This document shows positions 24,717 through 49,987 of a stretch of DNA of 64,000 nucleotides, in pieces. A model generated the notes under the pieces. That model saw only the letters and a list, made by a program, of their open reading frames with translations. It had not been told where the DNA came from and searched no databases. A program made the position numbers and the translations under genes. The stretch comes from a virus: positions 60,361 through 124,360 of IMG/VR virus record IMGVR_UViG_3300042305_002284; one strand, 5' to 3'. How positions within the stretch are numbered: the first letter of the stretch is position 1; each line of letters begins with the position of its first letter.

Positions 24717-25074
24717 AATATTAGAAACTTGTAAAAAATATTGGTATATGTTTGTTATATTCGCCCTAACCGGTGTTGTTTTGTTGGTGAGTTTTGTAGA
24801 GAACTCCAAAGTGGCAGGCTTGTCAAATGTTATAAAAAAGATTGCTGATGGTTATATAAAGCAGTTTGACAAGTTAGAAACACTAAACGATGCCAAAACA
24901 AGAAAAGATAAAAAAGTTATCAACAAAGCGGAAAAGAAAATAGAAGCAATAGAAAAAGACAAAGAAGAAAAAGTACAAAAAGTATTAGAAGAAAAAGAAA
25001 AAGTTGTAGAAAAACTCAAAGATAACTCAACAGAAGAACTTGCTAAAAAAATAAAGGAAGAGTATAATCTATGA
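24706..25074 (+). CDS. N-anchored coiled-coil protein (possible inner-membrane spanin-type)
   Basis: A 122-residue protein with CAAGGAA upstream of ATG. Residues about 13-32 form one transmembrane helix (YMFVIFALTGVVLLVSFV). The remaining 90 residues are a Lys/Glu-rich coiled coil running to the C-terminus. This N-in/C-out topology with a periplasmic coiled coil is the layout of Rz-type i-spanins. The stop overlaps the start of a signal-peptide-bearing coiled-coil protein, as Rz/Rz1 genes often overlap. The partner lacks a lipobox, so the spanin assignment is inferred from architecture only. Confidence 0.6.
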   Translation: MVNKILETCKKYWYMFVIFALTGVVLLVSFVENSKVAGLSNVIKKIADGYIKQFDKLETLNDAKTRKDKKVINKAEKKIEAIEKDKEEKVQKVLEEKEKVVEKLKDNSTEELAKKIKEEYNL

Positions 25075-25499
25075 GAACATTATGCTTAGCATTATTATTT
25101 ATATTTTCAGGGACTTCATTCGCTCAAACGGCAGTCGTAAAAGGACAACAATGTCCAGCAGACGGTATCTTTCTAACAAAAGAAGAAGCAGCAAAAATAT
25201 TAGCAGAAAAACAAGCAGCAGCAGAAATATGCCGGATAAATAATGAGGCGTCTGTTGAAAAAGAAAAAACAAAATGTGGTTTTGAAAAAGGCTTATTACA
25301 AAATGAACTTGATTTTGAAAAGAAAAAGTTTGATGAAATAATAGGGCTAAGAAATGCGCAAGACAAAGTTTTCTTGGATCGTATTGATGATGGGGGTGAC
25401 AATACATATTATTTTTTTGGCGGATTGGCTTTGGGTGCTGTTGTATCCGGAGCGGCCATAGTTGGCACAATAGTTCTAATAAACCAGGTCGTACAATGA
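25071..25499 (+). CDS. Exported coiled-coil protein with C-terminal membrane anchor
   Basis: A 142-residue protein starting in an ATGA overlap. Residues 1-18 are a Sec signal peptide (MRTLCLALLFIFSGTSFA, cleavage before Gln) with no lipobox. The middle is a Lys/Glu/Ala-rich coiled coil with three cysteines. Residues about 115-138 form a Gly/Ala-rich transmembrane helix (GLALGAVVSGAAIVGTIVLI). The mature protein would thus span the periplasm from a C-terminal anchor. Together with the preceding N-anchored coiled coil it could form a two-component envelope-disrupting or envelope-sensing complex. Not a classical Rz1 or u-spanin. Confidence 0.6.
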   Translation: MRTLCLALLFIFSGTSFAQTAVVKGQQCPADGIFLTKEEAAKILAEKQAAAEICRINNEASVEKEKTKCGFEKGLLQNELDFEKKKFDEIIGLRNAQDKVFLDRIDDGGDNTYYFFGGLALGAVVSGAAIVGTIVLINQVVQ

Positions 25500-25888
25500 G
25501 CCAAGACTGGGACAAGATAGCAGCAGTAGAAAAAGCCGTAAAAGAAAAATACGGAGATAATGCTATTGCTAATCCAAAAGCAAATTGGAACGCAGAAAAA
25601 GAAGCAGACTTTATAGAGCAAATAAAACAGCAAGCGATAAAAACTCAGGAAAAGCAGGACAAACAAGAAATAATAGAAGAAAATGGGTTTTTAGTAAAGA
25701 AAAAACTATTTATTAGCAAAACCAACAGGGTTTGTCCGGTCTTGGAATGTGGGCGTTATTCTTTTAGTGTAAAGGATGATGTATATATGAACAAGTTTGG
25801 ATGTTGTTATGGATGTTATATAAAATATGTTGAAGGTCGTGAAGGCCTTTGGGAAGAAAGAAAGAAGGTGATTACAAATGGTAGTTGA
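25496..25888 (+). CDS. Cys-rich small protein, putative zinc binding
   Basis: A 130-residue protein coupled to the previous gene by an ATGA overlap. The first 70 residues are charged and helical. Residues about 82-110 hold RVCPVLECGRYSFSVKDDVY and FGCCYGCYIKYVEGREGLWE, giving Cys-x4-Cys and Cys-Cys-x2-Cys spacing that could bind one zinc. A similar pattern is seen in phage proteins that contact nucleic acid or ribosomes, but no family is recognised. It ends 11 bases into the next gene. Confidence 0.6.
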   Translation: MSQDWDKIAAVEKAVKEKYGDNAIANPKANWNAEKEADFIEQIKQQAIKTQEKQDKQEIIEENGFLVKKKLFISKTNRVCPVLECGRYSFSVKDDVYMNKFGCCYGCYIKYVEGREGLWEERKKVITNGS

Positions 25889-26072
25889 TAAACTTGAAGA
25901 AGTAGCGAAAGCGCTTGAAGCGTGTAAGGCAGACGCCGTAAAAGTCGACAAAGGTAATCGTTCGGCTGCAACCCGTATTCGTAAAGATCTTGGTGCAGTT
26001 GCAAAGATGCTAAAAGAACTTCGTAATGCAGCGCTTGAAAAAGTTCGTGAAGTAAAAACAAAAGAAGACTGA
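25878..26072 (+). CDS. Histone H1-like (Hc1-family) DNA-binding protein
   Basis: A 64-residue Lys/Arg/Ala-rich protein with AAGGTGAT ahead of ATG. The block VDKGNRSAATRIRKDLGAVA lines up with the KGNKAAAQRVR segment of chlamydial Hc1, and the flanking helices share the Hc1 heptad-like pattern (VAKALEACKADAVK and MLKELRNAALEK). Hc1 proteins bind and compact DNA. Here the long basic C-terminal tail of Hc1 is missing, leaving only the conserved helical domain. It may organise phage DNA, alter the host nucleoid or be packaged. Family call is from remembered sequence pattern; role is inferred. Confidence 0.7.
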   Translation: MVVDKLEEVAKALEACKADAVKVDKGNRSAATRIRKDLGAVAKMLKELRNAALEKVREVKTKED

Positions 26073-26096
26073 AACCCAACAAGGAGAAGATAATAA

Positions 26097-26627
26097 ATGG
26101 CTGAACTTTTAGATGTAATAAAAGGTATTTCACAAGTAATGGCTCAAACTTATGATGGTGCAACCGATAAAGATGGTAAGCCAATCAAAGCAGGTTTGCG
26201 CCGCGAGGAAGTATCAGCATTTACCAGTTGTGAGTGTCGTCTCCTTGATGGTTTTCGTGCGCGTGTAACTCATCACGCAGGAAAAGATGGTTCTTTTCCT
26301 TGTTTGATAATCTCTTATCATAGCGAACTCAAACTTGAAGAAGCGCACAGTCCAAAACTCGGCGAACAAGTTGAGGAGCATATAGCAGAAGCACTAAAAT
26401 ATCTAAAAAAAGAGTTCAAAAAGGTTGCTGGCAAAGAACTAAATGTTGAAAAATATGGCGAAGTAAAAATGCTTGTTGAAGAAACATCAAGAATCCGAGT
26501 TTTTGTAACAGCACAATGTCATTACAAAATAAAAGATATTGATATGCCAAAACTTGAAGATCAAAAAGATGTTGAACGCAGCGAACAACTTCAAAAATGG
26601 TTAGCATTAGGTGGATTGAAGAAATGA
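26097..26627 (+). CDS. Conserved-type phage protein, unknown
   Basis: A 176-residue alpha/beta protein with AAGGAGAAG upstream of ATG. It contains SAFTSCECRLLDGFRARVTH, CLIISYHSELKLEEA, a long helix (LGEQVEEHIAEALKYLKKEF) and SRIRVFVTAQCHYKI. There are no membrane segments and no clear catalytic set. It lies directly before a leader-bearing gene and the large terminase with ATGA coupling downstream, so a role in head assembly or packaging is possible. I do not recognise a family. Confidence 0.7.
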   Translation: MAELLDVIKGISQVMAQTYDGATDKDGKPIKAGLRREEVSAFTSCECRLLDGFRARVTHHAGKDGSFPCLIISYHSELKLEEAHSPKLGEQVEEHIAEALKYLKKEFKKVAGKELNVEKYGEVKMLVEETSRIRVFVTAQCHYKIKDIDMPKLEDQKDVERSEQLQKWLALGGLKK

Positions 26628-27091
26628 AAATAACAAAAGCAAGACTTTTACAGATCATTCGTGAAGAGGTTGAACTCCACGAAAAGTATGTTGAAGAAAA
26701 TGTTATTGAACTTGACGAAGAGGCGATTGAAGAACTTTCGAAACAAGCCGGTAAAAAGGCCATTGAAGATGAAATAGATACTGACAAAGAGACTGGCAGT
26801 CTTAAAGAAGTTGAAAAAGTAAAACACAAAGGCAAAGAATATAAAGCATCGGCATCTACCATGAAGGCTATTCGCGGTGGTGCTGGCGGTCCCGGTAAAG
26901 TAACGACGTCAGAGTTTGAAAAAGCAGTAAAACAAGCAAGTTGGGCTGACGATCCAGAGGCGGTTGCTGCTGCCGGTAGAATAGTTGCTAAAAAGAAAGC
27001 CGGAACCATGGAAGAAGATAGTGATGTTGATGAAGATAAACTTCTTGATCCCGAAACAAAAGAACCGGTCAATGGCACGAAACCAAGATGA
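26624..27091 (+). CDS. Acidic protein with putative capsid-targeting leader, upstream of terminase
   Basis: A 155-residue protein. The start at 26624 overlaps the previous stop (ATGA); an in-frame ATG nine codons upstream is less likely. Residues 1-18 (MKITKARLLQIIREEVEL) match the leader of the proteins at 33777 and 34368, with an I-x-Glu14-Glu15 site like those cut by gp21-type proteases. The body is Lys/Glu/Ala-rich, with a Gly-rich centre (AIRGGAGGPGKV) and an acidic end. It sits where T4 places the small terminase, but no DNA-binding motif is evident. I favour an internal head or core protein. Confidence 0.65.
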   Translation: MKITKARLLQIIREEVELHEKYVEENVIELDEEAIEELSKQAGKKAIEDEIDTDKETGSLKEVEKVKHKGKEYKASASTMKAIRGGAGGPGKVTTSEFEKAVKQASWADDPEAVAAAGRIVAKKKAGTMEEDSDVDEDKLLDPETKEPVNGTKPR

Positions 27092-27094
27092 TAT

Positions 27095-28693
27095 ATGAGT
27101 TATGTTCTTACAAAAGATCAGGTAAAAGAAGAGATAAAGAAGTGCGGGCGTGATCCTGTATACTTCATTACAAACTACTGTAAAATATCACATCCAGAAA
27201 AAGGATTGATACCATTTAGTTTATACGGCTATCAGCAACGAACAATAAAAGACTTTGAAGACTATCGCTTCAATATAGTTCTAAAAGCCCGCCAGTTAGG
27301 TTTATCAACCGCTGTTGCGGGTTATATTGCTTGGATGCTTCTTTATCGCAGACAAAAAAGTGTTCTTGTTGTCGCAACAAAACTTGATGTAGCAGCCAAT
27401 CTTGTAAAAAAAGTAAAAAAAATGATAAAAAGTCTGCCAAGTTGGATGAACATAGCAGACATATCAATAGACAATAGAAATAGTTTTGAACTAAATAATG
27501 GCTCATGGATCAAAGCATCATCAACAAGTGAAAGTGCTGGTCGTTCGGAAGCGTTGAGTCTTCTTGTTATTGACGAAGCAGCATTCGTTGAAGGCATGGA
27601 AGACCTGTGGAAAAGTATATTCCCAACACTTTCAACCGGTGGTCGTTGTATTGCCCTCTCGACGCCAAATGGGGTTGGAAACTGGTTCCATGAAACATAT
27701 ATAAATGCTGAAAATAACACAAACGATTTCCACGCCATAAAACTAAACTGGGACGCCCATCCAGAGCGAGATCGCGACTGGTTTGAAGCAGCCACTCGTA
27801 ATATGAATAGGCGAGATATAGCACAAGAATTCGAATGCTCTTTCAATGCATCTGGTGAAGGCGTTATAAACTCGCAAGATTTACAAGAAATAAGAGAAGG
27901 CGTTTTAGAACCTAAATATCGCACAGGTTTTGATAGAAACTATTGGATATGGGAAGAAGCAAGAGTTGACTTTACATATCTTCTTGTAGCAGACGTCGCC
28001 CGTGGAGATGGAAAAGACTTTTCTGCTTTCCATGTTGTAAAACTTGAAACAATGGAACAAGTAGCAGAGTATCAAGGAAAAATAGCGCCTGATATTTATG
28101 CTGATATGTTGTTTCAAACAGGAAAAGAATATAATAATGCTCTTCTTGTTGTTGAAAATAACAATATTGGATATAATGTTCTTGATAAACTTATAGAAAG
28201 AAAATATCCAAATATTTATTTTTCAATAAAATCAACACATGAATATATAGAGCAAGTTCAAGCGGAAAGCATGACAAATAGTGTTCCAGGATTTACAACA
28301 ACTCAAAAAACACGACCTCTCATTGTTTCAAAACTTGAAGAGTTTATTAGAAACAGATTGATAAAAATATATTCTAATAGAACAGTAGAAGAACTATCTA
28401 CATTTGTATGGAACAACGGACGACCAGAAGCAATGAAAAATAGAAACGACGATCTAACAATGTCTCTTGCTATTGCTTGCTGGGTGAGAGACACGGCACT
28501 AACAGTTTCTCAACGAGATATTGAGTATACAAAGGCAATGTTCAATGCTATAACTGTGGCAAATACCAAAGTCCAAACTAAAATACCCGGACAGATAGGT
28601 TATAATGGAAACTACTCAATGGATGAAAAAAGAGTAAATCAAAAAGAACTAAAAGAGTTCTATAAAATGTATGACTGGCTTTATAAAGGATAA
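27095..28693 (+). CDS. Large terminase subunit (T4 gp17-like)
   Basis: A 532-residue packaging motor. The N-terminal ATPase has a Walker A variant ARQLGLST (residues 65-72), Walker B LLVIDEAAF (156-164, with the catalytic Glu) and coupling motif ALSTP (187-191). The C-terminal RNase H-fold nuclease has acidic residues at Asp300 (LLVADVARGDGKDFS), Glu354 (LVVENNN) and Asp452/453 (RNDDLTMS). It cuts concatemeric DNA and pumps it through the portal. It is shorter than T4 gp17 (610 residues). The portal gene follows after four bases. Unlike T4, no recognisable small subunit precedes it. Confidence 0.95.
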   Translation: MSYVLTKDQVKEEIKKCGRDPVYFITNYCKISHPEKGLIPFSLYGYQQRTIKDFEDYRFNIVLKARQLGLSTAVAGYIAWMLLYRRQKSVLVVATKLDVAANLVKKVKKMIKSLPSWMNIADISIDNRNSFELNNGSWIKASSTSESAGRSEALSLLVIDEAAFVEGMEDLWKSIFPTLSTGGRCIALSTPNGVGNWFHETYINAENNTNDFHAIKLNWDAHPERDRDWFEAATRNMNRRDIAQEFECSFNASGEGVINSQDLQEIREGVLEPKYRTGFDRNYWIWEEARVDFTYLLVADVARGDGKDFSAFHVVKLETMEQVAEYQGKIAPDIYADMLFQTGKEYNNALLVVENNNIGYNVLDKLIERKYPNIYFSIKSTHEYIEQVQAESMTNSVPGFTTTQKTRPLIVSKLEEFIRNRLIKIYSNRTVEELSTFVWNNGRPEAMKNRNDDLTMSLAIACWVRDTALTVSQRDIEYTKAMFNAITVANTKVQTKIPGQIGYNGNYSMDEKRVNQKELKEFYKMYDWLYKG

Positions 28694-28697
28694 ATAA

Positions 28698-31600
28698 ATG
28701 GCTAACAATAGTAGACCAATAAACAGAAGCGATCTTCGCAATATGCCTACCTCAAAAAGAGGCAGAGTAAATCAGGAAAGAAGTCCATATAACCCAGACA
28801 ACAGTCTTTTCAAAAGACTTACAAAACTATTTTCTGGTCCTATTGTCAACCGTCGTCAACAAAACTACAAAGGCGAGCGCCGCCGCCGTTTAGATAAATA
28901 TCGCTTTCAATCAGCACAAGGTCAACAGTTCAAAAAAAGTTCTTACAATCCGTTTGATTATGTTCATTCGCAAAGCATGGCAAATCAAAACCGTGCCGAA
29001 AGATATGTCGACTTTGAGCAAATGGAATATTGTTTGCACGGAGATACAAAGATAGCAGTTCCAGGTGGTTATAAGACGATAAAAGCACTTGCCGAAGAAT
29101 ATGGAACAACACAAGAGTTTATTGTTTATGCTTACGATCACACAAGAAAACAAATAGTTCCAGCATTTGGTAAGCAAGCAAGAAAAACCAGAACAGATCA
29201 TGCCTGGAAAGTAGTTTTCGAAAATGGACAAGAAATAATAGGGACCGCTAATCATCGTCTTATGATGAGAGATGCTACCTATAAAAGAATTGATCAACTC
29301 ATTGTTGGCGACAGCCTAATGCCTTTTTACAGAAAAGATCTAACTCACGGACAAAAAGATGAAGGCGAAGGTTATAGGTGGATCTACACAATGCACCAGG
29401 ATTCAGATCGTAAAAAAGGCTGGATACCAGAACATACACTTATTGCTGAATGGGTTGCTGGTCGTAAAGTATTGCCAGAAGAAGTAGTGCATCATATAAA
29501 CTTTATAAAATATGATAATAAACCAGAAAATTTGATAATAATGAGTTCAAAAGAACATTTACGATATCATCAAAACACTGTCAACGAGCAAAGAAAAAAT
29601 ACTGAATGGTGGGATTCTTTTAGAGCCAAACATAGCGAATGGATGAAGAAAAACAATCCAGCAGAAAGAAAAGATATAACTTTCGAAATAATATTAAGTC
29701 TTTGCGACCAATATGGATTCAATCAAAAAAACATTTGTTCTATGCTGGACACAGATTCAAATACCATAAAAAGAAGACTAAAAACAAAAGGTTTTGAAAG
29801 TTTTGAAATGTTTGCCAGAACTTATCAACCTAACTGGAAAAACGCTGGACAAGACAACAGGAAGAACAAAAATCCTCGTTATGATTCAAACATAACTTTC
29901 AAAAAAGTTTGTGATGCATATGAGCAAGGCATTTCATCAACAGCACTTGCGAGAAAACTAAATACAACACCAGCAAAAATAGTAAATAGAATAAAAGAAA
30001 ATGGCTTTTCTTCTTATAGTAATTTTACAAAAACATATCACAATCACAAAGTATCAAAAATAGAATATTATGGCTTTATTGATCTATACGATCTTACAGT
30101 TGATGGATATAAAAATTTTGCTACTGATAGTGTTTTATCTCACAACACACCAGAACTTGCTTCTGCTTTGGACATATATGCTGATGAAATGACAACAAGT
30201 AACTCGCTTGAAAAAGTTCTCACAATTGATTGTCCTAATGAAGAAATAAAAACTATTTTACATACCCTTTATTATGATGTTTTGAATATTGAGTTCAACC
30301 TTTTTGGTTGGTCAAGAAATATGTGTAAGTTTGGTGATTTCTTTTTATACCTTGATATTGATGAGCGCGATGGTGTTAGAAATGCAATAGGTCTGCCACC
30401 ATATGAAGTTGAGCGTATCGAAGGCGAAGATGAAAAAAATCCAAACTATGTCCAGTTTCAATGGAATAGCGGTGGAATGACTTTTGAAAACTGGCAGTTA
30501 GGACATTTCCGTATTCTTGGCAATGATAAATATGCTCCATATGGAACAAGTGTATTGGAACCAGCCCGTAGAATATATCGCCAATTGACGCTTTTGGAAG
30601 ATGCCATGATGGCTTATCGTATTGTTCGTTCTGCTGAACGTCGTGTATTCTATGTTGATGTAGGAAATGTTGCTCCTAATGATGTAGAGCAGTTCATGCA
30701 AAAAGCAATGACAGCGCTAAAAAGAAACCAAGTTGTTGATGAGAAAACCGGTCGTGTAGATCTTCGTTATAACCCACTTTCAATTGAAGAAGACTACTTT
30801 ATTCCAGTTCGTGGCCAACAATCAACAAAAATAGAAAGTCTTTCTGGCGGTCAATACACTGGCGATATAGAAGATGTAAAATATCTACGAGACAAACTAT
30901 TTTCTGCTATAAAAATACCACAAAGTTATCTTGCTCGTGGCGAAGGCGGCGATGAAGATAAAACAACATTAGCTCAAAAAGATATTCGTTTTGCTAGAAC
31001 CATTCAAAGACTACAAAGATCGATTATAAGTGAACTTGAAAAAATAGGAGTTATACATCTTTTCGTTCTGGGATACAGAAGCGAAGATCTTATCAAGTTC
31101 AAACTAAAACTAAACAACCCAAGTAAAATAGCAGAACTCCAAGAACTTGAATCATGGAAAACTAAGTTTGAAGTAGCAAGTGCTGCAACCGAAGGATATT
31201 TCTCCAAGCGTTGGGTTGCTAAAAAAATATTTGGTCTTTCCGACGAAGAGTTCCTGCGAAATCAGCGTGAAATGTTCTTTGACTTCAAGTTCAAGGCTGC
31301 GGTTGAGAAAGCAGGAACAGAACAAGAAGCTGCTGCTGGTGATGCAGATGCATTTGGTGGAGGTGCTAATATTGGTGCAACAGGTGCTGGTGGTGAAGAC
31401 ATGGGAGCCGGTATAGACCTGAGCACTCTTGGAGCAGAACCAGAAGGAACCGCAACATCAACACCAGAATCACCAACGCCAGAAACACCCGCTGGTGGAG
31501 AAGAAGAAGCGGGTCCATTATTGGCAGCGCCAGGTAAAAGAGACGACAAACTAACAACCACTCCTGCTTCAAGGGGTAAAATGTATATGCCTGTAAAATA

Positions 31601-31910
31601 TCGTGGTGGCGATAGCAGGCCAACAGGAGCAAGAACAAGAAGTTATCAGTCAAAGTTTAGCAAAGAGTTGAGCGGCGGTTCCAGTAGAAACGTATGGGGA
31701 AGTGGAACACAAGATCTGTTTGGTCTTGGCAATGGTATTTACGAACAATATGAAAATAGTTATAGTGAAGAGATGTTGAGTGAAACAAACAAAAAACAAG
31801 ACAACGATATTGTAGAACAAAAAATATTATCTAATAACGAAAACTTGAAACAACTAATAAGTTCTTTGGAGAAGAAAAATGCAACAAACAAAGAAAATGG
31901 CGAAGACTAA
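28698..31910 (+). CDS. Portal protein (T4 gp20-like) interrupted by an intein
   Basis: A 1070-residue precursor. After splicing of residues 112-483 the mature portal would be 698 residues. The exteins join as FEQMEY + TPELASALDIYADEM, the helical segment with a Pro-Glu that is conserved near the start of gp20-type portals. Later portal features include GLPPYEVERI, the wing/clip region YGTSVLEPARR and the stem helix before RGEGGDEDK. The C-terminal 200 residues are Gly/Ala/Pro-rich and disordered-looking. The dodecameric portal is the DNA entry pore of the head and the docking site for terminase and neck. The stop lies inside the next gene. Confidence 0.93.
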   Translation: MANNSRPINRSDLRNMPTSKRGRVNQERSPYNPDNSLFKRLTKLFSGPIVNRRQQNYKGERRRRLDKYRFQSAQGQQFKKSSYNPFDYVHSQSMANQNRAERYVDFEQMEYCLHGDTKIAVPGGYKTIKALAEEYGTTQEFIVYAYDHTRKQIVPAFGKQARKTRTDHAWKVVFENGQEIIGTANHRLMMRDATYKRIDQLIVGDSLMPFYRKDLTHGQKDEGEGYRWIYTMHQDSDRKKGWIPEHTLIAEWVAGRKVLPEEVVHHINFIKYDNKPENLIIMSSKEHLRYHQNTVNEQRKNTEWWDSFRAKHSEWMKKNNPAERKDITFEIILSLCDQYGFNQKNICSMLDTDSNTIKRRLKTKGFESFEMFARTYQPNWKNAGQDNRKNKNPRYDSNITFKKVCDAYEQGISSTALARKLNTTPAKIVNRIKENGFSSYSNFTKTYHNHKVSKIEYYGFIDLYDLTVDGYKNFATDSVLSHNTPELASALDIYADEMTTSNSLEKVLTIDCPNEEIKTILHTLYYDVLNIEFNLFGWSRNMCKFGDFFLYLDIDERDGVRNAIGLPPYEVERIEGEDEKNPNYVQFQWNSGGMTFENWQLGHFRILGNDKYAPYGTSVLEPARRIYRQLTLLEDAMMAYRIVRSAERRVFYVDVGNVAPNDVEQFMQKAMTALKRNQVVDEKTGRVDLRYNPLSIEEDYFIPVRGQQSTKIESLSGGQYTGDIEDVKYLRDKLFSAIKIPQSYLARGEGGDEDKTTLAQKDIRFARTIQRLQRSIISELEKIGVIHLFVLGYRSEDLIKFKLKLNNPSKIAELQELESWKTKFEVASAATEGYFSKRWVAKKIFGLSDEEFLRNQREMFFDFKFKAAVEKAGTEQEAAAGDADAFGGGANIGATGAGGEDMGAGIDLSTLGAEPEGTATSTPESPTPETPAGGEEEAGPLLAAPGKRDDKLTTTPASRGKMYMPVKYRGGDSRPTGARTRSYQSKFSKELSGGSSRNVWGSGTQDLFGLGNGIYEQYENSYSEEMLSETNKKQDNDIVEQKILSNNENLKQLISSLEKKNATNKENGED
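29031..30146 (+). other. Intein with HNH homing endonuclease inside the portal gene
   Basis: The 372-residue insert begins with Cys (CLHGDTKIAVPGG), has block B GTANHRLM and ends LSHN before Thr, the expected nucleophile, His-Asn and +1 Thr of a splicing-competent class 1 intein. The middle carries an HNH endonuclease segment (VVHHINFIKYDNKPENLIIM then SKEHLRYH) and repeated helix-turn-helix-like segments (SNTIKRRLKTKGF and TPAKIVNRIKENGF) that could bind the target DNA. All splicing residues are present, so it should be active. It is probably mobile between portal genes. Confidence 0.92.
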
Positions 31911-32745
31911 ACACAATAAAAAGAGAAATACAGCATTTTTATACGAAGTTATTATCCGTGAAATAACAAATGCTGTATTACAAAAAAATGAAGAACAAAA
32001 AAAGTTTCTTGTAAAAGTTTGTAAGTCTTTTTTCTCAAATGGTAAGGTGTTAAAAAAAGAACTTGACCTATATCGTGCTGTCTATGAGTCGCACGAAGTT
32101 TCAAGCGATATTTCTCAAAAGATACTAAACGAAGCAAAGTTTCAATATGAAGGTTTGGATAAAAAAGAGATATTCAACGAACAAACAAAACTTATAAATA
32201 TTCTAAACAAAATATCAAACGGAACAATGTTCAACACTTTTGTATCGGACTATAAAAATCTTGCCACGATATCTCAAATATTCAATAATAGTGTTCCAGT
32301 AAAAGAAAAAGTTTTATTAGAAACAGCAATAATAAGTAAAATGACTTCATCCTCAGAAGATGCTGAAAAAGATAAACTGGCTACACTTGATTCTCTAACT
32401 TATAAGTTGTTTGTAAAGAAGTTCAACGAACAATATAGCAATGCTCTCTTCTCAGAACAAAAAGAACTTCTAACAAAATATGTAATGAGTTTTGCTGATG
32501 GCGGCACAGAGTTCAAGTTATATCTAAACGAAGAAATAGAAAGAATAAAAACTTCTCTAAAAACAAGTCTTCAAGAAAAACAGTTTGCAGAAGATCGCTT
32601 TCTAAAAGATAAAACAAATATCGTATTAGAGAGAGTGGAAAACTATAAACAAAAGAGTATTGACAACTCTCTAATAGAAGAAGTTATGAAAATACAAAGT
32701 TTGATAAAAGAAATAGAATCAAAGGAAGAAACAAACAATGGCTGA
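31879..32745 (+). CDS. Head-operon protein, unknown (portal-proximal helical protein)
   Basis: A 288-residue, almost wholly helical protein rich in Lys, Glu and Asn. The ATG at 31879 has GGAGAAG at a good distance and overlaps the portal by 32 bases; a second ATG at 31897 is possible but lacks an SD. The N-terminus KHNKKRNTAFLYEVIIREIT is a conserved-looking block that I associate with genes beside the portal in T4-type cyanophages. Coiled-coil segments follow. Candidate prohead core or assembly factor; function unknown. Confidence 0.72.
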   Translation: MQQTKKMAKTKHNKKRNTAFLYEVIIREITNAVLQKNEEQKKFLVKVCKSFFSNGKVLKKELDLYRAVYESHEVSSDISQKILNEAKFQYEGLDKKEIFNEQTKLINILNKISNGTMFNTFVSDYKNLATISQIFNNSVPVKEKVLLETAIISKMTSSSEDAEKDKLATLDSLTYKLFVKKFNEQYSNALFSEQKELLTKYVMSFADGGTEFKLYLNEEIERIKTSLKTSLQEKQFAEDRFLKDKTNIVLERVENYKQKSIDNSLIEEVMKIQSLIKEIESKEETNNG

Positions 32746-33316
32746 CCTAAAAGTAAAGATCACGAGCACAGATCCGCAGCCAGATCAAGCCTTTGATGAT
32801 ATTCCGGCAGAAGAAACACCTGAAAAGAAAAAACAACTTTTTACAATAAAAGTAAAAGCAAGAAGAACTCTTGATGGAAATATTATTGTTTCAGATCATC
32901 CAGAGATTGATATTGTTATCATGCCTGACAAAATGCGAGTTATAACTTTTTCAAAAGAAAACTTTGACGATCACATTTACCAAACTCAAGATCGTTTTAT
33001 GAAATATCTAACAAAAAAAGGCACAATAGTTTTTGACAGCATAGCCAGCGGAAATGTATATGGTTCATTAGAAGCAAAAATAATAAAACCAATACAAGAG
33101 TTGCCAATAGACAATCTAATGCTGATGCTTGTATCCAAATGGATAGAAAGTGAAAAACCGTCTGTTGCTTATCAAGAAGCGATAGAAGATGTTTATGTCG
33201 ACAGCATTACTGAACCAAACGATAAAGAAAGCACAGAACTTGGCAAAGTTCCAGCAGCACAAGAAAAAGGTTCAGTTCCAATACACCAGGTTCGTCGCTA
33301 TGCCTATGGTTTATGA
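32738..33316 (+). CDS. Head-operon protein, unknown
   Basis: A 192-residue protein overlapping the previous gene by eight bases. The first 35 residues are acidic and disordered-looking (DQAFDDIPAEETPEKKKQ). The middle is an alpha/beta domain (LFTIKVKARRTLDGNIIVSD, VIMPDKMRVITFS) and the C-terminus is acidic then basic. There is no membrane segment or catalytic motif. It lies between the portal and protease genes, so a capsid-related role is plausible. No family is recognised. Confidence 0.7.
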   Translation: MADLKVKITSTDPQPDQAFDDIPAEETPEKKKQLFTIKVKARRTLDGNIIVSDHPEIDIVIMPDKMRVITFSKENFDDHIYQTQDRFMKYLTKKGTIVFDSIASGNVYGSLEAKIIKPIQELPIDNLMLMLVSKWIESEKPSVAYQEAIEDVYVDSITEPNDKESTELGKVPAAQEKGSVPIHQVRRYAYGL

Positions 33317-33614
33317 TATCATAGTTTTTATTTTATCATGTGCCGGGGCCACACAAATATTGTGTTATGGAAGTATATTGGATAAAATAAGACCAAAAAA
33401 CGGAATACTGGGAGAGTTATTCCGTTGTAGTATGTGTGTTGGTTTTCATGTTGGATATATTCTGTTTGTGTTATTCTGGATTGCTGGTGTGTCTATGTTT
33501 TCTAACTTTTACATTGGAGCACTTGTATTTGCGTTTATTTCTTCATATACCAGCTATGTGTGCGACAAAGTGTTGAGTGATGAAGGAATAATGATAAAAA
33601 TAGCGAATAAATAA
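33300..33614 (+). CDS. Small membrane protein with FRC-x-x-C motif (DUF1360-like)
   Basis: A 104-residue protein. I place the start at the ATG at 33300 (CAGG about ten bases upstream), overlapping the previous gene by 17 bases; longer readings upstream are out of frame inside that gene, and a second ATG lies at 33306. Three hydrophobic helices are visible (VYDIIVFILSCAGATQIL, VGYILFVLFWIAGVSMF, YIGALVFAFISSY). Between the first two is GELFRCSMCVGFHVGY, resembling the Cys-x-x-Cys loop of DUF1360-type membrane proteins. Function is unknown. Unusual within a head gene cluster. Confidence 0.6.
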   Translation: MPMVYDIIVFILSCAGATQILCYGSILDKIRPKNGILGELFRCSMCVGFHVGYILFVLFWIAGVSMFSNFYIGALVFAFISSYTSYVCDKVLSDEGIMIKIANK

Positions 33615-33648
33615 AAGTTACGAGATATTTATAAGTTGTGAGGTTTAT

Positions 33649-33765
33649 ATGAACCTAGTAGATCAAAATATTCGTAAATGGTTTCTTCCGCAGACCAATA
33701 GCCGTAGATGCTGTAAAGGAAGTTGTATCGTGCGGGTTGCGCCCGCATTCTACTTTAGTATATAA
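33649..33765 (+). CDS. 38-residue Cys/Arg-rich small ORF
   Basis: In the 160-base gap before the next gene, an ATG with GTGAGG upstream opens a 38-codon frame (MNLVDQNIRKWFLPQTNSRR, then CCKGSCIVRV). The basic, Cys-rich centre suggests a tiny nucleic-acid or metal-binding peptide. Its end overlaps a hairpin that could be a terminator, and a one-step variant of the ACTATTTATA motif (GATATTTATA) precedes it. It may be a short gene or just leader sequence. Confidence 0.4.
   Translation: MNLVDQNIRKWFLPQTNSRRCCKGSCIVRVAPAFYFSI
33731..33756 (+). terminator. GC-rich hairpin, possible intrinsic terminator
   Basis: TGCGGG and CCCGCA form a 6-bp GC stem around a 5-base loop, followed by TTCTACTTT. 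The T tract is interrupted, so termination strength is uncertain. It stands out in this AT-rich genome and separates the membrane protein region from the protease cluster. Confidence 0.5.
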
Positions 33766-33776
33766 GGATTTATCGC

Positions 33777-34352
33777 ATGAAAGTAACAAAACAAGAACTA
33801 CAAAAAATTATAAAAGAAGAACTTGGTGCTATGGCAGCAACGGGAGAACTTGAAGAAGGCTTTCTTGACAAACTGCTTGGCAAACAGCCAAGGTTTGGAG
33901 ATTTTGTTACCGATGACGATGTAAAAAAGAAACTTGATGTAGTTCAAAAGAATCTCGGAGATCTACGAGGACTTGCTTCTAATCAAGGAAACAAAGAACT
34001 TGGCTTACAAGTAACAAAAATATCAAACGATGTGGCAGATCTCTATAGTAAAACAACACCTAAAGGCCCAGAACTAAAAACAATAACCGATAAGCCAGAA
34101 GACATAACACTTCGCAATGCGAAAGAAGCACTCGCTGATCCAAAAAGAAGAAGTAAGTTATCAACACAAGGCTTGGTAAAAATACTATCTAAAATAGCTC
34201 CAACAGAAAAAGTCCCAACAGGTCCAGAAGGTGGAGTTGATAGAGCAAAACTAATGAGTTTAGTTCAACAAAAATTACAAAATATACCAGACGCTAAAAC
34301 ATTTAAAGGTGGAAGACCGGCGAGGCTTCGTTCTCGTCCTGTTGGTGAATGA
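33777..34352 (+). CDS. Putative prohead core/internal protein with leader peptide
   Basis: A 191-residue protein preceded by AAGGAT. The leader MKVTKQELQKIIKEELGAM is near-identical in pattern to that of the protein at 26624, with I12-K13-Glu14-Glu15 as a possible gp21-type cleavage site. It is followed by ELEEGFLDKLLGKQ, a block shared with the next gene. The rest is Lys-rich and helical (DVVQKNLGDLRG-type coils, then DAKTFKGGRPARLRSRPVGE at the end). The basic mature protein could be packed with DNA inside the head, as T4 internal proteins are. Inferred from leader and location. Confidence 0.65.
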   Translation: MKVTKQELQKIIKEELGAMAATGELEEGFLDKLLGKQPRFGDFVTDDDVKKKLDVVQKNLGDLRGLASNQGNKELGLQVTKISNDVADLYSKTTPKGPELKTITDKPEDITLRNAKEALADPKRRSKLSTQGLVKILSKIAPTEKVPTGPEGGVDRAKLMSLVQQKLQNIPDAKTFKGGRPARLRSRPVGE

Positions 34353-34367
34353 AATAAAGGTTTATAA

Positions 34368-35396
34368 ATGTCTTTTTCAGGTAAAGAGTTTGATGAAATA
34401 TTACAAGAAGAAACCATAAAACTCCTTGAAGAAGAAGGGATGAGTGAAGGTTTTCTTGATAAAATAAAAGACCTTTATAAAAGTTTTACAAAACCAAAGC
34501 CAAACACCTCGCAAGGTGTTGGTAAAGCATTTGCTGGTTTTAGATATAAACCACCAGCCCAACAAGTAAAAAAACAAGAGCCAGAAAAGCAACAAACACA
34601 AACCGGACTTGCAACAAAGAAGGCAGGCTCATTAGAGACGAGTAATGTTGATGATGATGAGCCACAAGATAAACAAGCAAGTGCTCCGACTGGAACATAT
34701 GATTTAGGAACACAGCGTAAACTTCCACCTTCTCAACAAGCATCATCACCGGCAGGAGAAAATCCACCAGAAACATCTATTCCATCAGGCGAACTCCCAC
34801 CATCCGATATTATACAAAAACGGTTACCTGCTCCACAAAAAATAGGCATCATGCCAGAATATCAACCTCTAATGCTTGATATAGATAAAATAGATTTTCA
34901 AAATTTAAGAGATAGAATAGTTTCTTTATTGCAGGATAAGCAAATATTTATCAACAAAGATGAAGCAGAAAAAAAAGAAATTATAAGACAAACAGAAACT
35001 GTTTTGAAATATCTTGTAACAACAAAAAGAGTTATACAAAATCCAACTATTCGTCCACAAAATGAAAATACAACAAGACCAACTCCATCAATGCAGCAAG
35101 TTGGAGCAGTTGATTTTAATTCTTGGTATGTAAAAAGTCTTGTTCTAACTACTGAAAAATATTTCCAAGGTTCTATCAACAGCGATATTATAAAGTTTGT
35201 AATCGGCAGTTTATTTAGTGATGGACGTTTGGCAATAAGTCAAAGACTTTACAACAAACTAATACATACAAACGATCCAAGAATTACAGACAATTTAGAC
35301 ACAGAAGATGACGGCAAGAATATAAACGAATCAAAGTCTTATAGCAACTTTTACAATAGTTGGAAAAAATACACCAAAACAGGAGTTACATTATGA
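34368..35396 (+). CDS. Putative prohead core/internal protein, paralogous leader
   Basis: A 342-residue protein. The leader MSFSGKEFDEILQEETIKLL has L12-Q13-Glu14-Glu15, matching the register of the two other leader-bearing proteins, and MSEGFLDKIKDLYKSF repeats the EGFLDK block of the gene just upstream. Residues 45-165 are Pro/Gln/Ser-rich and disordered (QKPLPPSQQASSP-like composition). A folded helical domain follows from about 165 to 320. The stop overlaps the protease start (ATGA), so production is coupled with the enzyme that would process it. Confidence 0.65.
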   Translation: MSFSGKEFDEILQEETIKLLEEEGMSEGFLDKIKDLYKSFTKPKPNTSQGVGKAFAGFRYKPPAQQVKKQEPEKQQTQTGLATKKAGSLETSNVDDDEPQDKQASAPTGTYDLGTQRKLPPSQQASSPAGENPPETSIPSGELPPSDIIQKRLPAPQKIGIMPEYQPLMLDIDKIDFQNLRDRIVSLLQDKQIFINKDEAEKKEIIRQTETVLKYLVTTKRVIQNPTIRPQNENTTRPTPSMQQVGAVDFNSWYVKSLVLTTEKYFQGSINSDIIKFVIGSLFSDGRLAISQRLYNKLIHTNDPRITDNLDTEDDGKNINESKSYSNFYNSWKKYTKTGVTL

Positions 35397-35998
35397 GCCA
35401 GTTTTTATTGAGAGAATATTTTGAACTCTGTGAAGGCGGTGTATGCCAAGATCTACTAACAGAAGCAGAAAAAAGTTTTGTAAAAAGCGGAGGCATGATG
35501 CTTTCCGGTGTTATACAGAGAGCAGATGCTAAAAATGGCAATGGTCGTGTGTATCCAGAAAGTGTTCTGCGAAGAGAAGTAGAAAACTATAAAAAACTTA
35601 TTGCCGAAAATCGTGCCCTTGGAGAACTGGATCATCCAGATGAAAGTGTTATAAACCTAAAAAACGCTTCACACATTGTTACAGATATTTGGTGGAATGG
35701 CAAAGATGTAATGGGTAAAGTAAAAGTTTTATCAACACCATCAGGTCAAATATTGAAGTCTCTTGTTGAGAGTGGCGTAAAACTTGGTATATCAAGTCGT
35801 GGTCTTGGCAGTGTAAGGGAGCGCGGTGGCCTAACTTATGTTGAAGATGACTTTCAACTTATTTGTTTTGACTTTGTAAGTGAACCATCAACAGGTGGAG
35901 CATTTATGAGCCTTTCAGAAAGTAAAAAAGCACCTAACATTTTTACAAAATCAGATAGAATAAACCGCCTGCTAAACGACATTATAGGTGTAAAATGA
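35393..35998 (+). CDS. Prohead maturation protease (T4 gp21-like)
   Basis: A 201-residue protein. I take the ATG at 35393, in an ATGA overlap, over an in-frame start 11 codons upstream. Catalytic His81 lies in GELDHPDES, and the nucleophile Ser (134 or 135) in LGISSRGLGSV. These are the hallmarks of the herpesvirus/T4 gp21 serine protease fold. T4 gp21 is 212 residues. It cleaves core, capsid and internal proteins after L/I-x-Glu during head maturation and then digests itself. N-terminal LLREYFELCEGG could itself be a processed core-binding segment. Next gene overlaps by four bases. Confidence 0.92.
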   Translation: MSQFLLREYFELCEGGVCQDLLTEAEKSFVKSGGMMLSGVIQRADAKNGNGRVYPESVLRREVENYKKLIAENRALGELDHPDESVINLKNASHIVTDIWWNGKDVMGKVKVLSTPSGQILKSLVESGVKLGISSRGLGSVRERGGLTYVEDDFQLICFDFVSEPSTGGAFMSLSESKKAPNIFTKSDRINRLLNDIIGVK

Positions 35999-36444
35999 AA
36001 AAAAGCGAACTAAAAGAAATAATAAAGCCAATAGTTCAAGAATGTGTGCGTGAAAGCGTTCAAGAAATATTGCTTGAAGGCGGACTATTATCCAGTGTTA
36101 TAAAAGAAGTTATGAAAGGCGCTTTTCCTGTTCTCACAGAAGCAACCAGGACACAAACAGTAAGTGCTTCGCAGCCAACAAAAAATCCACAAATGAATAA
36201 TGAGTTGATGGAGCAAATAAAGCGTGAACGTCAAGAAATGGCTAATGAGTTTCGCAAACAAAACGAACAAGTAAGCAAAAATTTATCAATGAAAGTTGGT
36301 GGAGTTGATGTGTTCCGTGGAACAAGTCCTGCACCGGCTACCATACAAGAAACAGTAGCAAATCCGCTTGGAGGAGTGTCACCAAACGATCCCGGCGTTG
36401 ATATAAGCAGACTATTTGGTGGGAAAAAGTTCAACATAGGTTGA
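35995..36444 (+). CDS. Putative core-associated protein downstream of protease
   Basis: A 149-residue protein starting in an ATGA overlap with the protease. The N-terminus MKKSELKEIIKPIVQECVRE then SVQEILLEGG resembles the amphipathic leaders of the neighbouring putative core proteins, with several L/I-x-Glu sites. The middle is Gln/Glu/Asn-rich coiled coil, and the end (DISRLFGGKKFNIG) is short and basic. It is probably a prohead core or scaffold component that the protease processes. No homologue is recognised by name. Confidence 0.65.
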   Translation: MKKSELKEIIKPIVQECVRESVQEILLEGGLLSSVIKEVMKGAFPVLTEATRTQTVSASQPTKNPQMNNELMEQIKRERQEMANEFRKQNEQVSKNLSMKVGGVDVFRGTSPAPATIQETVANPLGGVSPNDPGVDISRLFGGKKFNIG

Positions 36445-36459
36445 TATTATGAGGAAAAA

Positions 36460-36660
36460 ATGAAAGTAAGTTTAGACGAAGTAGATGGTAATGTAGAAAA
36501 AATGATAAAAAAGTTTGTCAAAAAAACAAAAAAAATGAGAATAGTAGAACAAGTATATGATCGTAAACATTATATAAAACCATCAATGGCTGCTCATATA
36601 AAGCGTAGACAAAAAGCAAGAGCAATAGAGAAAGAAAAAGCCCAACAAAAAGATGACTAA
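36460..36660 (+). CDS. rpsU-like: Ribosomal protein bS21 homologue
   Basis: A 66-residue, strongly basic protein with GAGGAA upstream of ATG. It follows the bS21 plan: an N-terminal strand MKVSLDEVDGN, helix VEKMIKKFVKKTKKMRIVEQ, then the signature YDRKHYIKPSMAAHIKRRQ that matches R-x-x-x-Y-x-KPS/T-x-x-R-K of bacterial bS21, and a Lys-rich tail (E. coli bS21 is 71 residues). bS21 sits beside the anti-SD end of 16S rRNA and aids initiation. Phage-encoded bS21 is known in some large phages. Its place between head genes suggests late expression to steer ribosomes to phage messages. Role is inferred; family call is strong. Confidence 0.85.
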   Translation: MKVSLDEVDGNVEKMIKKFVKKTKKMRIVEQVYDRKHYIKPSMAAHIKRRQKARAIEKEKAQQKDD

Positions 36661-36699
36661 TAAATGTTAGCACTATAATAGCCTATTATTTTTATCAAA

Positions 36700-36709
36700 A
36701 CTACTTATT
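36700..36709 (+). promoter_or_regulatory. ACTACTTATT motif, candidate phage promoter
   Basis: A one-mismatch copy of the recurring ACTATTTATT motif, 26 bases before the first fibre gene. A perfect sigma70-like TATAAT also lies at 36674, but without a good -35 box at 17 bp. Either could start the fibre transcript. Confidence 0.35.
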
Positions 36710-36735
36710 AAGTAAAATCTGGAGTTTTATAAAAA

Positions 36736-39564
36736 ATGACCAATAGAGGTATTGCTGTAATTTCTGGTAGCAGTGCGGTTGTTGCCAAGATAATGGAAAA
36801 TAACACAGCAGTATTCGGACAAGATGTTCCAATTGATCTAAAAATAAGCGGAAACCTTGTTATCCAGTTATCCGGCGAAACACCACCAGGTTATCTTTAT
36901 ATTGATAGTCAAGGTTCTGCTTCAATAGCAAATGCTCTAATAGGAAATATTAGCGCAAGCAATGTATATCTTCAACCAAGTGGTAATTTATCATCAAGTA
37001 ATGTCCAAGATGGACTGTATGAATTACAATCAGATATAGATACTATTCTTTCATCATCAATATCTGCCGGTGGAATTGATACATCAGTACAGTTCAATAG
37101 TGGTTCTGCTTTATCTGGTTCTTCACAACTTGTATACAACTATACAAATAACATACTGAGCGGAACATTTGCCAGATTTACAACAGTAACTGCCTCACTT
37201 GCTGGTACTGCTTCATTTGCCACACTTGCTGGTAATGCCAATACTGTAACAAATGGTGTATACACAAATACAAACAATACTTTTACAGCAGCAAATACAT
37301 TTAGTAATTTTTATATAACTGGCTCTATAACTGGTAGTGATGCCAAGTTTACAAACATAACTGGTTCTCACGCTGGCTCTGGTGCTGGTCTAACAAATAT
37401 TCCAAATGAGGCACTTGTAAATAGTTCAGTTACAGTTGGTTCAACAAATATCACACTTGGTGGTAATGCCACAATTATACAAGGCATTACAGTTCTGACT
37501 GGTTCCACAGTAACTGGTTCTATTGCCCTATTCTCCCAAATAACTGGTGCTTTTAATGGAAATGGAATAAATGTAACAAACATAACTGCTTCTAATATTT
37601 CTAACTTTACAAGCGATGTAAGAACTCAGTTTTCCGCAGGAACAAATATAACAATCGTCGGCGGTGTTATTTCTTCAACTGCAAGCGGCAGCGGTGTTGA
37701 TACATCAATACAATTCAATAGCGGTTCTTCTCTGTCTGGTTCAGCAAATCTTATTTATGATTATAACACAAATACGCTTAGCGGAACAACGGCTCAGTTC
37801 TCAACAATAACTGCTTCTAATATAACGATTGGACAAGCAGAAGACGGAACATATACAGATGGATTATTTACAACATTTACTCCTCTAACACCTATCGGCT
37901 TGGTAGTTGATCGTTTCAATGAAGTTCTAAAAGGTCTTGCTCCAAGTCAAGCTCCATCATTATCAAACTTAGAAAGAAACACTGGCGGTGGCAATAGCGC
38001 AATACTGTCATTTGGTGCCACAAGTCCAACTGCTTCTTATTTCAATGTTACGGCAAGTTTAGCTGGCTTACCAAATGTTGATATAGGTGGAACTTATTCT
38101 GTTACAAACGGACCAGGCGGTAATCCAATAAGACTTGGTATTTTCACTGCTCTAACAGCACTAACAGCAACTCTCAATAATAATGTAGCCGCTAATGCCG
38201 GTTCATTTACAAACTATCCTGCAAGAGCATTCAATGTATCGCCAGATGGTGTTGGTTCATATATCATAGAAATGAACGATGTTATAATAACTCCAACAGG
38301 TTCTACACTAACGACTGCTTCTTATAGCGCTAATAACTTTGCGCTATCTCTTGCTAATACTGCTTCATTTATAAGTACAGGTTTGGGTTTTGATTTATTT
38401 AGACACAGAACAGGTTCAGTATCAATACCAACTTCTTCTTGGAGGCTTGGAGAAAACTATTTCAAAGTAACACAAGTTTCTTCTCTTGGAACAAATGTAA
38501 CAAACTATGTTGATTGGGTTTATGATCCACAAGCAGCATCAGGAAACTCGGTTTATGGTTTTACAACTACAAGCTCGTCATTTTCTGTTAGCGGCCTAAA
38601 AGAACTTTCAGGTATAAGATATTATCAAACTTGTAGTTTCAACTATACATCTTCTATTTCAAACTACTACAAGAATGTTTATTCAACTGCGGCTAACGGT
38701 GGTATTACATTTGGAAGCTTGACATCTGGCCTAACAGCTACTGCCTTTGCTTCTACTCCTGCCCCAGCAAATAGTGATAATGTATTACAAAGAAGCAGCC
38801 TACACACATTAGCTGGCGTAAGAGTGTTATCAGGTACTCTAACTTCTACTATGACTGTTGCTAATGGTTTTGGAAAAACAGGTACTTCTGTACTAACCAC
38901 TCCAAATATCCTATTTGATAATATCAATACGGCAAATACAAATACAGTAGAAAATTTTTGTTTTGAAGACTTCCGTGTTGCTTCGGCAAGTTATGATACT
39001 CAAATTTCACTAACTGGTGCTCCTGCCTATTCAAGTGGTTCAAGTCTTGCCACAACAGAACTTGCCGTATATAACGGTGGTATTATATATCCAACACAAA
39101 CTTTCAATGCTGGAAATATTGCCGGTTCTGGTATAGTTTATATGTTACCTAGCCAGCCAAACTATGCTGGTGTAACACAAGATAGATTTTATCTTCGTAG
39201 GTTCGTAAATGGAGTAAGTGCTCTTGCTACATTCAATCTTATATTGACTGGCTCAAACATCAACTTTACAGCATTTGGTGGGGCACTAACTGGTAACGCT
39301 GTAAAAATAACAGTAAAGGTTCCAGGTAAAACAGGATGGAGAGATGTAATGACTGCTGCTCCACCAAATACAACCGGTATTGCTCTAAATGACAATGTAG
39401 GTTGTCTCGCTGGTTCTCCCCCAGCCAATATAACAACTTCTGCCGGAAGGAGCATAAGTATCAACTTACTAACCGAAGCGGTAGGAGCCAATGAAAGCTA
39501 TATAGTAAGAGTGCTAACAAGTAATGCTTGGACCGGAACTATAACAAGGTTGCAGATAGGATAA
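36736..39564 (+). CDS. Tail fibre-type protein with repeats
   Basis: A 942-residue beta-rich protein, very rich in Thr, Ser, Gly and Asn. Residues 1-110 form an N-terminal block (AVISGSSAVVAKIMENNTAV) that probably attaches to the particle. Residues 110-375 carry fibre repeats: FNSGSALSGSSQLVYNYT, NTVTNGVYTNTNNTFTAANT, SGAGLTNIP, LTGSTVTGSI and FSAGTNITIVGGVIS. These recur several times in the next gene. The C-terminal 550 residues are distinct from the paralogue and may be the receptor-binding head, with a Gly-rich end. Predicted to be a side or tail fibre; receptor unknown. Confidence 0.8.
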   Translation: MTNRGIAVISGSSAVVAKIMENNTAVFGQDVPIDLKISGNLVIQLSGETPPGYLYIDSQGSASIANALIGNISASNVYLQPSGNLSSSNVQDGLYELQSDIDTILSSSISAGGIDTSVQFNSGSALSGSSQLVYNYTNNILSGTFARFTTVTASLAGTASFATLAGNANTVTNGVYTNTNNTFTAANTFSNFYITGSITGSDAKFTNITGSHAGSGAGLTNIPNEALVNSSVTVGSTNITLGGNATIIQGITVLTGSTVTGSIALFSQITGAFNGNGINVTNITASNISNFTSDVRTQFSAGTNITIVGGVISSTASGSGVDTSIQFNSGSSLSGSANLIYDYNTNTLSGTTAQFSTITASNITIGQAEDGTYTDGLFTTFTPLTPIGLVVDRFNEVLKGLAPSQAPSLSNLERNTGGGNSAILSFGATSPTASYFNVTASLAGLPNVDIGGTYSVTNGPGGNPIRLGIFTALTALTATLNNNVAANAGSFTNYPARAFNVSPDGVGSYIIEMNDVIITPTGSTLTTASYSANNFALSLANTASFISTGLGFDLFRHRTGSVSIPTSSWRLGENYFKVTQVSSLGTNVTNYVDWVYDPQAASGNSVYGFTTTSSSFSVSGLKELSGIRYYQTCSFNYTSSISNYYKNVYSTAANGGITFGSLTSGLTATAFASTPAPANSDNVLQRSSLHTLAGVRVLSGTLTSTMTVANGFGKTGTSVLTTPNILFDNINTANTNTVENFCFEDFRVASASYDTQISLTGAPAYSSGSSLATTELAVYNGGIIYPTQTFNAGNIAGSGIVYMLPSQPNYAGVTQDRFYLRRFVNGVSALATFNLILTGSNINFTAFGGALTGNAVKITVKVPGKTGWRDVMTAAPPNTTGIALNDNVGCLAGSPPANITTSAGRSISINLLTEAVGANESYIVRVLTSNAWTGTITRLQIG

Positions 39565-48301: not shown

Positions 48302-49987
48302 ATGTCAGTTATCAAAAAATTAACAGAAGGCGTCGTAAAGCGTGACCTTGAAAAAGAAGGTGGTGCTCTACTAAGCAAATGGTCAGAAACAGGTCTACTC
48401 GAAGGTATAGGCGATGATCGTGCTAAATCTTCAATGGCTCGTCTATTAGAAAATCAGGCTCAGGAACTACTCCGCGAAGCCAACACAATGTCAGGAGGTG
48501 ATGTAGAAGGTTTTGCCGCTGTTGCGTTCCCAATAGTGCGCCGTGTATTCGGTTCACTTATTGCGAATGAACTTGTTAGCGTTCAACCAATGAGTCTACC
48601 AAGTGGTCTAATCTTCTTCCTTGACTTCCAGTTTGAGCGTACACGCGGCGCCAATCTACAAGATACCTCAATATTTGGTGGTGGTGTTGTTGGTTCACAA
48701 CTCACTGGCGGTGTCAGTCTTTCAGGTGTAAATGCTGAAAACTCACTCCGTGCTCTAAACCAAGGTTATTCACTACCAACTGGCAGTGGTAACGTTACAC
48801 TAACACTTGTCACCTCGGGAACCTTTGGTGCTGGTGGTACTCTTGACAAACTTTGTAGGTTTGATGCTGACTTTGTCAGTGGTTCAACCAAAGTCGCAAT
48901 ATTTACTGTTTCAGGGAGCAGTCTAACTGCACTTGATAAGAGCAGTCTTATTGCGATCAATGCTACACTACCAAGCGGCTCACTTGTTCGTCGCCTAACC
49001 GACAAAACAGATTCAACCGGTCTTGTCGACACTAGCGGTGAAACCTATACCCACATTCGTCTTGTAGTTGCCAGCGAAACACTTGCTCCAACTCTACTTG
49101 ACGACAATGCTGGTTCTCGTGCGCTAACTTGGCCAATTGCTGATGTTATTGGTAACGTTGGTCTTGACGCACAAGGTGCTGTTGTTGCTTCGCAGGTAAC
49201 CTTTGAAGGCGAAGCAAACATTCCAGAAATTGATATCAAAGTTGACAGTGTTGCTGTAACTGCCAAGACCCGCAAGCTCAAGGCAAAATGGACACCAGAA
49301 CTTGGTCAAGACCTCAATGCATACCACAATCTTGATGCAGAAGTTGAACTCACTTCAATTCTGTCAGAACAGATTGGTCTTGAAATTGATCAAGAAATGC
49401 TTGGTGAACTTGTCAAAGGTGCAACCGCTGCAACACTATATTGGTCACGCCGCCCAGGTAAATTCGTAGATCGTACAACCGGTCTTGCGATTGCCAGTGG
49501 TGTAAGTGATCCAAATGGTGCTGACTTCACCGGTAATGTCAGTATGTGGTACGAAACCCTTGTTGAAACAATCAACGATGTAAGTGCTGCAATTCACCGT
49601 AAAACACTTCGCGGCGGCGCAAACTTTGTTGTTTGTGGTCCAGAAGTTGCCAACATCCTTGAATTCACCAGTGGCTTCCGTGCCAATGTTGTTCATGATG
49701 ATGCCAAGGGCACAATCGGTGCTGTCAAAGCAGGTTCACTCAGCAAGAAATGGGATGTCTTTGTTGACCCATACTTCCCACGCAACCTGATCCTTGTTGG
49801 TCGTAAAGGCAATAGTTTCCTCGAAAGTGGATTCGTATATGCCCCATATGTACCACTACAAGTTACACCAACCATCTTTGGAACCGAAGATTTCGTTCCA
49901 AGAAAAGGTGTGATGACACGCTACGCCAAGAAGATGGTTAGACCAGACATGTATGGCCTCGTAGTCGTACAAGACCTACTTGGTTGA
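48302..49987 (+). CDS. Major capsid protein (T4 gp23-like)
   Basis: A 561-residue protein (T4 gp23 is 521) with CAGGAG upstream. The N-terminal 60 residues are a helical delta domain with LLE sites and LLREANTM. A likely protease cut after Glu59 (L-R-E|A) is close to the T4 position (after Glu65). The HK97-type fold continues with VAFPIVRRVFGSLIANELVS and VQPMSLPSGLIFFLDF, and near the C-terminus FVPRKGVMTRYAKKMVRPDM. It forms the capsid hexamers. Arg is mostly CGT/CGC and Gly/Val GGT/GTT or GTC, unlike AGA-rich neighbours, consistent with high expression. Two terminators follow. Confidence 0.95.
   Translation: MSVIKKLTEGVVKRDLEKEGGALLSKWSETGLLEGIGDDRAKSSMARLLENQAQELLREANTMSGGDVEGFAAVAFPIVRRVFGSLIANELVSVQPMSLPSGLIFFLDFQFERTRGANLQDTSIFGGGVVGSQLTGGVSLSGVNAENSLRALNQGYSLPTGSGNVTLTLVTSGTFGAGGTLDKLCRFDADFVSGSTKVAIFTVSGSSLTALDKSSLIAINATLPSGSLVRRLTDKTDSTGLVDTSGETYTHIRLVVASETLAPTLLDDNAGSRALTWPIADVIGNVGLDAQGAVVASQVTFEGEANIPEIDIKVDSVAVTAKTRKLKAKWTPELGQDLNAYHNLDAEVELTSILSEQIGLEIDQEMLGELVKGATAATLYWSRRPGKFVDRTTGLAIASGVSDPNGADFTGNVSMWYETLVETINDVSAAIHRKTLRGGANFVVCGPEVANILEFTSGFRANVVHDDAKGTIGAVKAGSLSKKWDVFVDPYFPRNLILVGRKGNSFLESGFVYAPYVPLQVTPTIFGTEDFVPRKGVMTRYAKKMVRPDMYGLVVVQDLLG

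Follow-up and report, generated by a model that had tools for sequence, protein, structure and literature searches.

A gene for a diverged homologue of ribosomal protein bS21 was found among the head genes of an uncultivated T4-like myovirus, in a slot beside the prohead protease gene that is nearly fixed in the clade of this phage. Profile matches, the conserved slot and phylogeny support both the identity of the product and the place of its gene in the head cassette. The window, that is, the whole stretch of DNA analysed, has 64,000 nucleotides and comprises bases 60361–124360 of a virus record of 124,360 bases; its features are listed in Table 1. The best explanation, which we consider reasonably probable, is that the protein would be made late, enter the host 30S subunit and shift initiation to phage messages.

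Table 1. Features of the bS21 region in the window (coordinates of the window)
Feature	Position	Strand	Basis
Large terminase gene	27095–28693	+	tblastn to annotated terminases
Portal protein gene with in-frame HNH-containing intein-like insert	28698–31910	+	PHROG 213 and HNH families
Prohead (head maturation) protease gene	35393–35998	+	PHROG 207, E 2.6e-55; alignment
149-aa gene, function unassigned	35995–36444	+	tblastn synteny, 20 IMG/VR loci
Shine–Dalgarno sequence TGAGGA of the bS21 gene	36450–36455	+	Sequence; upstream sequences of relatives
Phage bS21 gene, 66 aa	36460–36660, stop included	+	PF01165, PHROG 21469, phage-only clade, dN/dS
Gene of fibre-like repetitive protein, downstream of bS21	36736–39564	+	ORF and repeat content, not a profile match
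Major capsid protein gene	48302–49987	+	PHROG 138, E 2.6e-68

The open reading frame (ORF) starts with ATG and encodes a product of 66 residues, MKVSLDEVDGNVEKMIKKFVKKTKKMRIVEQVYDRKHYIKPSMAAHIKRRQKARAIEKEKAQQKDD, containing the motif YDRKHYIKPS...KRRQK, in agreement with the preliminary description, which had reported a 66-residue product with the bS21 signature. The Pfam search proposed there gave a significant match to PF01165 (Ribosomal_S21; E 9.4e-7, 28.9 bits against a gathering score of 27), in which residues 9–55 of the ORF are aligned with positions 6–53 of the 55 in the profile; this was the sole Pfam family matching up to E 10. PHROG 21469 (ribosomal protein S21) also matches the ORF (E 5e-4). 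The score for TIGR00030, the NCBIfam equivalog S21p, a stricter model for the cellular equivalog, is 26.9 bits, slightly below the cut-off of 28.95; accordingly, the product is regarded as a diverged bS21 homologue, unproven as the cellular equivalog. In a PDB sequence search the top matches were bS21 chains, although weak ones (E 0.015 and 0.033 for the best two). Judged by homology, the ORF is bS21; the homology is modest, given its Pfam score and its place below the NCBIfam cut-off, and this counts to some extent against the best explanation.

The AlphaFold model of the protein (pLDDT 76.8, pTM only 0.35) is represented by two helices, residues 5–36 and 41–64, with a break at the KPS turn. 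No significant structural match for the predicted fold was found with Foldseek: three matches were returned at E up to 10, the best with E 3.0, two of them labelled human mitochondrial 28S and one a bacterial 30S complex. From the chain lengths we infer that the matched small-ribosomal-subunit chains are bS21, and these non-significant matches would then point the same way as the bS21 identity.

The bS21 gene directly follows the genes of the prohead protease and of the 149-aa protein; the fibre genes and the gene of the major capsid protein are located downstream of it. Genes of tail sheath and tube were also found in the window phage, and the terminase, portal, protease, capsid, sheath and tube genes are all on the strand of bS21. 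The gene is thus located near structural genes in a bona fide phage genome, as expected of phage bS21 (Mizuno 2019; Chen 2022), and its placement inside the head gene cluster, made from the sequence alone, is borne out by profile matches to the neighbours and by the conserved slot. The protease ORF opens at 35360 with TTG, but the ATG at 35393 is the likely start. The 149-aa gene has no PHROG match, always separates the protease gene from bS21 in close relatives, and could encode a partner of bS21 or a part of the scaffold. All 14 close relatives compared retain a GAGG core upstream of the bS21 gene.

Further features were noted in the same genome and its relatives. The insert in the portal protein (approximately residues 113–483, CLHGDTKIAVPGG...VLSHN) is in frame, contains HNH and is intein-like; most close relatives match portal residues 1–112 and 484–1070 contiguously, without the insert, while L032 matches the full portal (1–1070), and therefore the insert is present in some relatives and absent from others. 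Seven tRNA genes (Glu, Ser, Ala, Ile, Asn, Arg, Leu) are located in the early region (L020:1639–7634, contig 21639–27634), and a cluster of genes for glycosyltransferases, UDP-GlcNAc 2-epimerase and methyltransferases, which may act in surface modification, occupies L020:11726–19193 (contig 31726–39193).

The putative promoter for the fibre genes, which the preliminary description had placed after bS21, was not recovered: the stretch separating bS21 from the fibre gene contained no promoter-like sequence, and the promoter-like matches in the region (4 found, 3.8 expected by chance) are at chance level. A terminator in this stretch of the window was likewise unsupported (hairpin z 0.26). In L006 bS21 is directly followed by a strong hairpin that, with its T run, resembles an intrinsic terminator (6205–6310, z −4.4), and a near-identical sequence is present in L007, which suggests that bS21 ends a transcription unit in these two loci. 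In L004–L013 a hairpin just 3' of the bS21 stop pairs CUACCU with AGGU directly before the next start codon (for example, L009:6202–6250 and L005:6202–6252; z −3.7 to −5.2 in L005, L009 and L012); it could mask the ribosome binding site of the next gene, and is not predicted in the window phage.

The closest bS21 proteins in IMG/VR are 59–83% identical to that of the window, and their N-terminal half is almost invariant. The order of terminase, portal, protease, 149-aa homologue and bS21 holds in 20 loci as far as the contigs extend; these loci had been found via bS21, and the search was therefore repeated with the protease alone. Among the 53 protease-found loci with enough flank, bS21 is located by the protease in 48 (E < 1e-4), three more have weak or borderline matches, and two lack it; counting the weak matches, bS21 is next to the protease in 51 of 53. 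In all 91 bS21 loci the gene is on the strand of the protease, a median of 467 nt downstream; the bS21 distances correlate with those of the protease (Spearman 0.35; 0 of 999 permutations as high). In the Flavobacterium phage immuto group, a sister group, the terminase, portal, protease and capsid genes are related to those of the window and identically ordered, but bS21 is absent from the vicinity of the protease in all 40 usable loci and the group is essentially without Shine–Dalgarno (SD) motifs, which occur at 2% of genes in the immuto region.

A nearly fixed position between protease and capsid genes would also be expected if a basic two-helix protein descended from bS21 now served off the ribosome as a virion or head-assembly factor, either packaged or RNA/DNA-binding, and Chen 2022 (PMC9723584) mentioned packaging of phage bS21 as one possibility. 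We consider this very improbable: the bS21 profile positions are retained, and bS21 genes of other phages are encoded on the opposite strand or at a distance from head genes, so that a head role is not general to phage bS21 proteins.

Median pairwise dN/dS of bS21 is about 0.12, an approximate value with many dS near or above 1; it indicates purifying selection, and the ORF is therefore not a chance one. In a tree of 92 bS21 proteins, 22 phage sequences, including the window protein, form a phage-only clade (support 98/94) not nested in the sampled Bacteroidota or Pseudomonadota, although the alignment is short and deep placement unsure. Accordingly, the gene is not a recent capture from a host. 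A scan of bacterial genomes with the bS21 alignment revealed no close relative encoded in them and thus no evidence of a recent host donor; together with the phage-only clade, this argues for long residence of bS21 in these phages. The window protein gave no tblastn match to annotated phages even at E 1, because it is too short and too diverged. Host assignment from metagenome-assembled genomes carrying protease relatives was discarded, since the bins were contradictory (Flavobacteriaceae, Maricaulis, Woesebacteria, Methylococcaceae, Halobacteriovorax and others).

The core kept by purifying selection is compatible with a protein that merely replaces limiting host bS21, keeping the 30S subunit complete with its specificity unchanged, and bS21 is a small ribosomal protein described as exchangeable (PMC6375957). 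Such a function seems quite unlikely, however, as the phage lineage stands clearly apart from the bacterial bS21 proteins sampled and its N-terminal helix is distinctive, with MIK[KR]F in place of the bacterial ALKRF, which suggests more than simple copying.

SD motifs, scored as GGAG, GAGG or AGGA upstream of the start, were found before 56% of the window genes, compared with 3% at internal ATGs and 11% in shuffled sequences. The use of SD sites by genes of the window phage is clear, but the earlier statement that almost all of them carry strong AGGAG sites was exaggerated. The late half is richer in SD motifs than the early half (31/54 versus 14/43, Fisher p 0.024), with about 33% in contig positions 1–40000 versus about 57% in 40001–124360, a gap that may partly reflect wrongly called starts in small early genes. 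In the protease family, loci with bS21 have a median SD fraction of 0.58 versus 0.00 for those without it, for few independent clades.

Phage bS21, its entry into ribosomes, the idea of ribosome swapping, co-location with head genes (with a prohead protease gene no more than ten genes from bS21 in 310 of 900 published genomes) and late expression have been published (Mizuno 2019, PMC6375957; Al-Shayeb 2020, PMC7162821; Chen 2022, PMC9723584). In Microcystis phage Mel-JY01 (PP395634), the annotated RpsU (bS21) gene at 22183–22410 occupies the same slot as in the window: the prohead protease gene, one hypothetical gene and bS21 are on one strand, with the capsid gene downstream. The terminases of the two phages are 43% and the proteases 55% identical, but the Mel-JY01 bS21 is unlike that of the window, being 75 aa long with a longer N-terminus, diverged, and outside the phage-only clade. 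Similar to the window, the Bacteroidetes phages of Chen 2022 (PMC9723584) contain bS21 a few genes from the protease, portal, terminase and capsid genes; however, it is encoded opposite to the structural genes, whereas the window clade is co-directional, and residue 54 (F. johnsoniae numbering) is aromatic, whereas the window clade mostly has a basic residue there. The genomes of these published phages lack SD sites. A separate scan of similar IMG/VR loci, L301–L314, showed bS21 of the Bacteroidetes type with mostly Tyr or another aromatic residue near position 54, in line with Chen 2022, usually encoded opposite to its neighbours, and almost no SD motifs (fraction 0.00–0.14, with 0.00 in 9/12), unlike the SD-rich window clade. 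The feature in the window is thus real and ordinary for its kind, and the SD-rich clade with basic residue 54 is a modest extension.

The window bS21 has Arg 12 residues after KPS, the equivalent of position 54 by counting, and 84 of 91 related loci are non-aromatic there by crude indexing. The idea that absence of Tyr54 from the bS21 of a phage infecting Bacteroidota would unmask the anti-SD was weakened, since 22 of 30 sampled Bacteroidota bS21 proteins have Arg at the equivalent position by simple indexing and a Bacteroidota host is itself an assumption. A general link between bS21 presence and SD use was rejected as well, because the Bacteroidetes-type bS21 phages are almost without SD motifs; phage bS21 is thus present in phages that use SD sites and in phages that do not. 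The bS21 type appears to match the initiation mode of the phage, presumably that of the host, with host phylum a full confounder and few independent clades. In F. johnsoniae, loss of bS21 or the substitution Y54A raises translation of strong-SD messages (PMC9976891). Two functional types of phage bS21, an aromatic-54 type masking the anti-SD in phages with SD-less genes and a basic-54 type freeing it in phages with SD-rich genes, are a tentative and rather doubtful proposal; the pattern may simply reflect the host phylum of each phage.

Ribosomal protein bS21 is located on the platform of the 30S subunit, by the 3' end of 16S rRNA. According to the preferred reading, the phage protein, whose gene is a stably kept member of the late head cassette in a clade of T4-like myoviruses, would be made late alongside capsid proteins, would exchange with or replace host bS21 on the platform, and would thereby tune initiation toward abundant, mostly SD-bearing late phage messages. 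Late-stage takeover of ribosomes by phage bS21 is a hypothesis published by Chen 2022 (PMC9723584), and transcription of phage bS21 together with structural genes has been seen in metatranscriptomes from lakes (PMC9723584). Incorporation of a different phage-encoded bS21, that of pelagiphage HTVC008M, into E. coli 70S ribosomes was shown experimentally (Mizuno 2019, PMC6375957). The resulting ribosomes gave about 5% of normal GFP in vitro (PMC6375957), a result that fits inhibition no less than redirection, and inhibition therefore remains a serious rival: phage bS21 may enter host ribosomes and mainly lower host translation, as a shut-off or ribosome-poisoning subunit. This is nevertheless unlikely, as the HTVC008M test used a mismatched host and placement among late genes would be odd for a shut-off factor, as the phage needs heavy translation at that time. 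A ribosome swap late in infection is plausible; of the interpretation in the preliminary description, bS21 identity and the head-cassette position were retained, and near-universal AGGAG sites and the promoter were not.

Phage bS21 is among the clearest candidates for a viral component altering the specificity of bacterial ribosomes, and the clade described here adds a large set in which its gene is nearly fixed beside the prohead protease in SD-using phages. As Bacteroidota, the hosts of the best-studied bS21 phages, do not use SD sites, the clade is a useful counterpart for testing the action of bS21 via SD recognition. If the reading with two types is true, swapping in the basic-54 bS21 would make ribosomes favour late phage mRNAs with SD sites.
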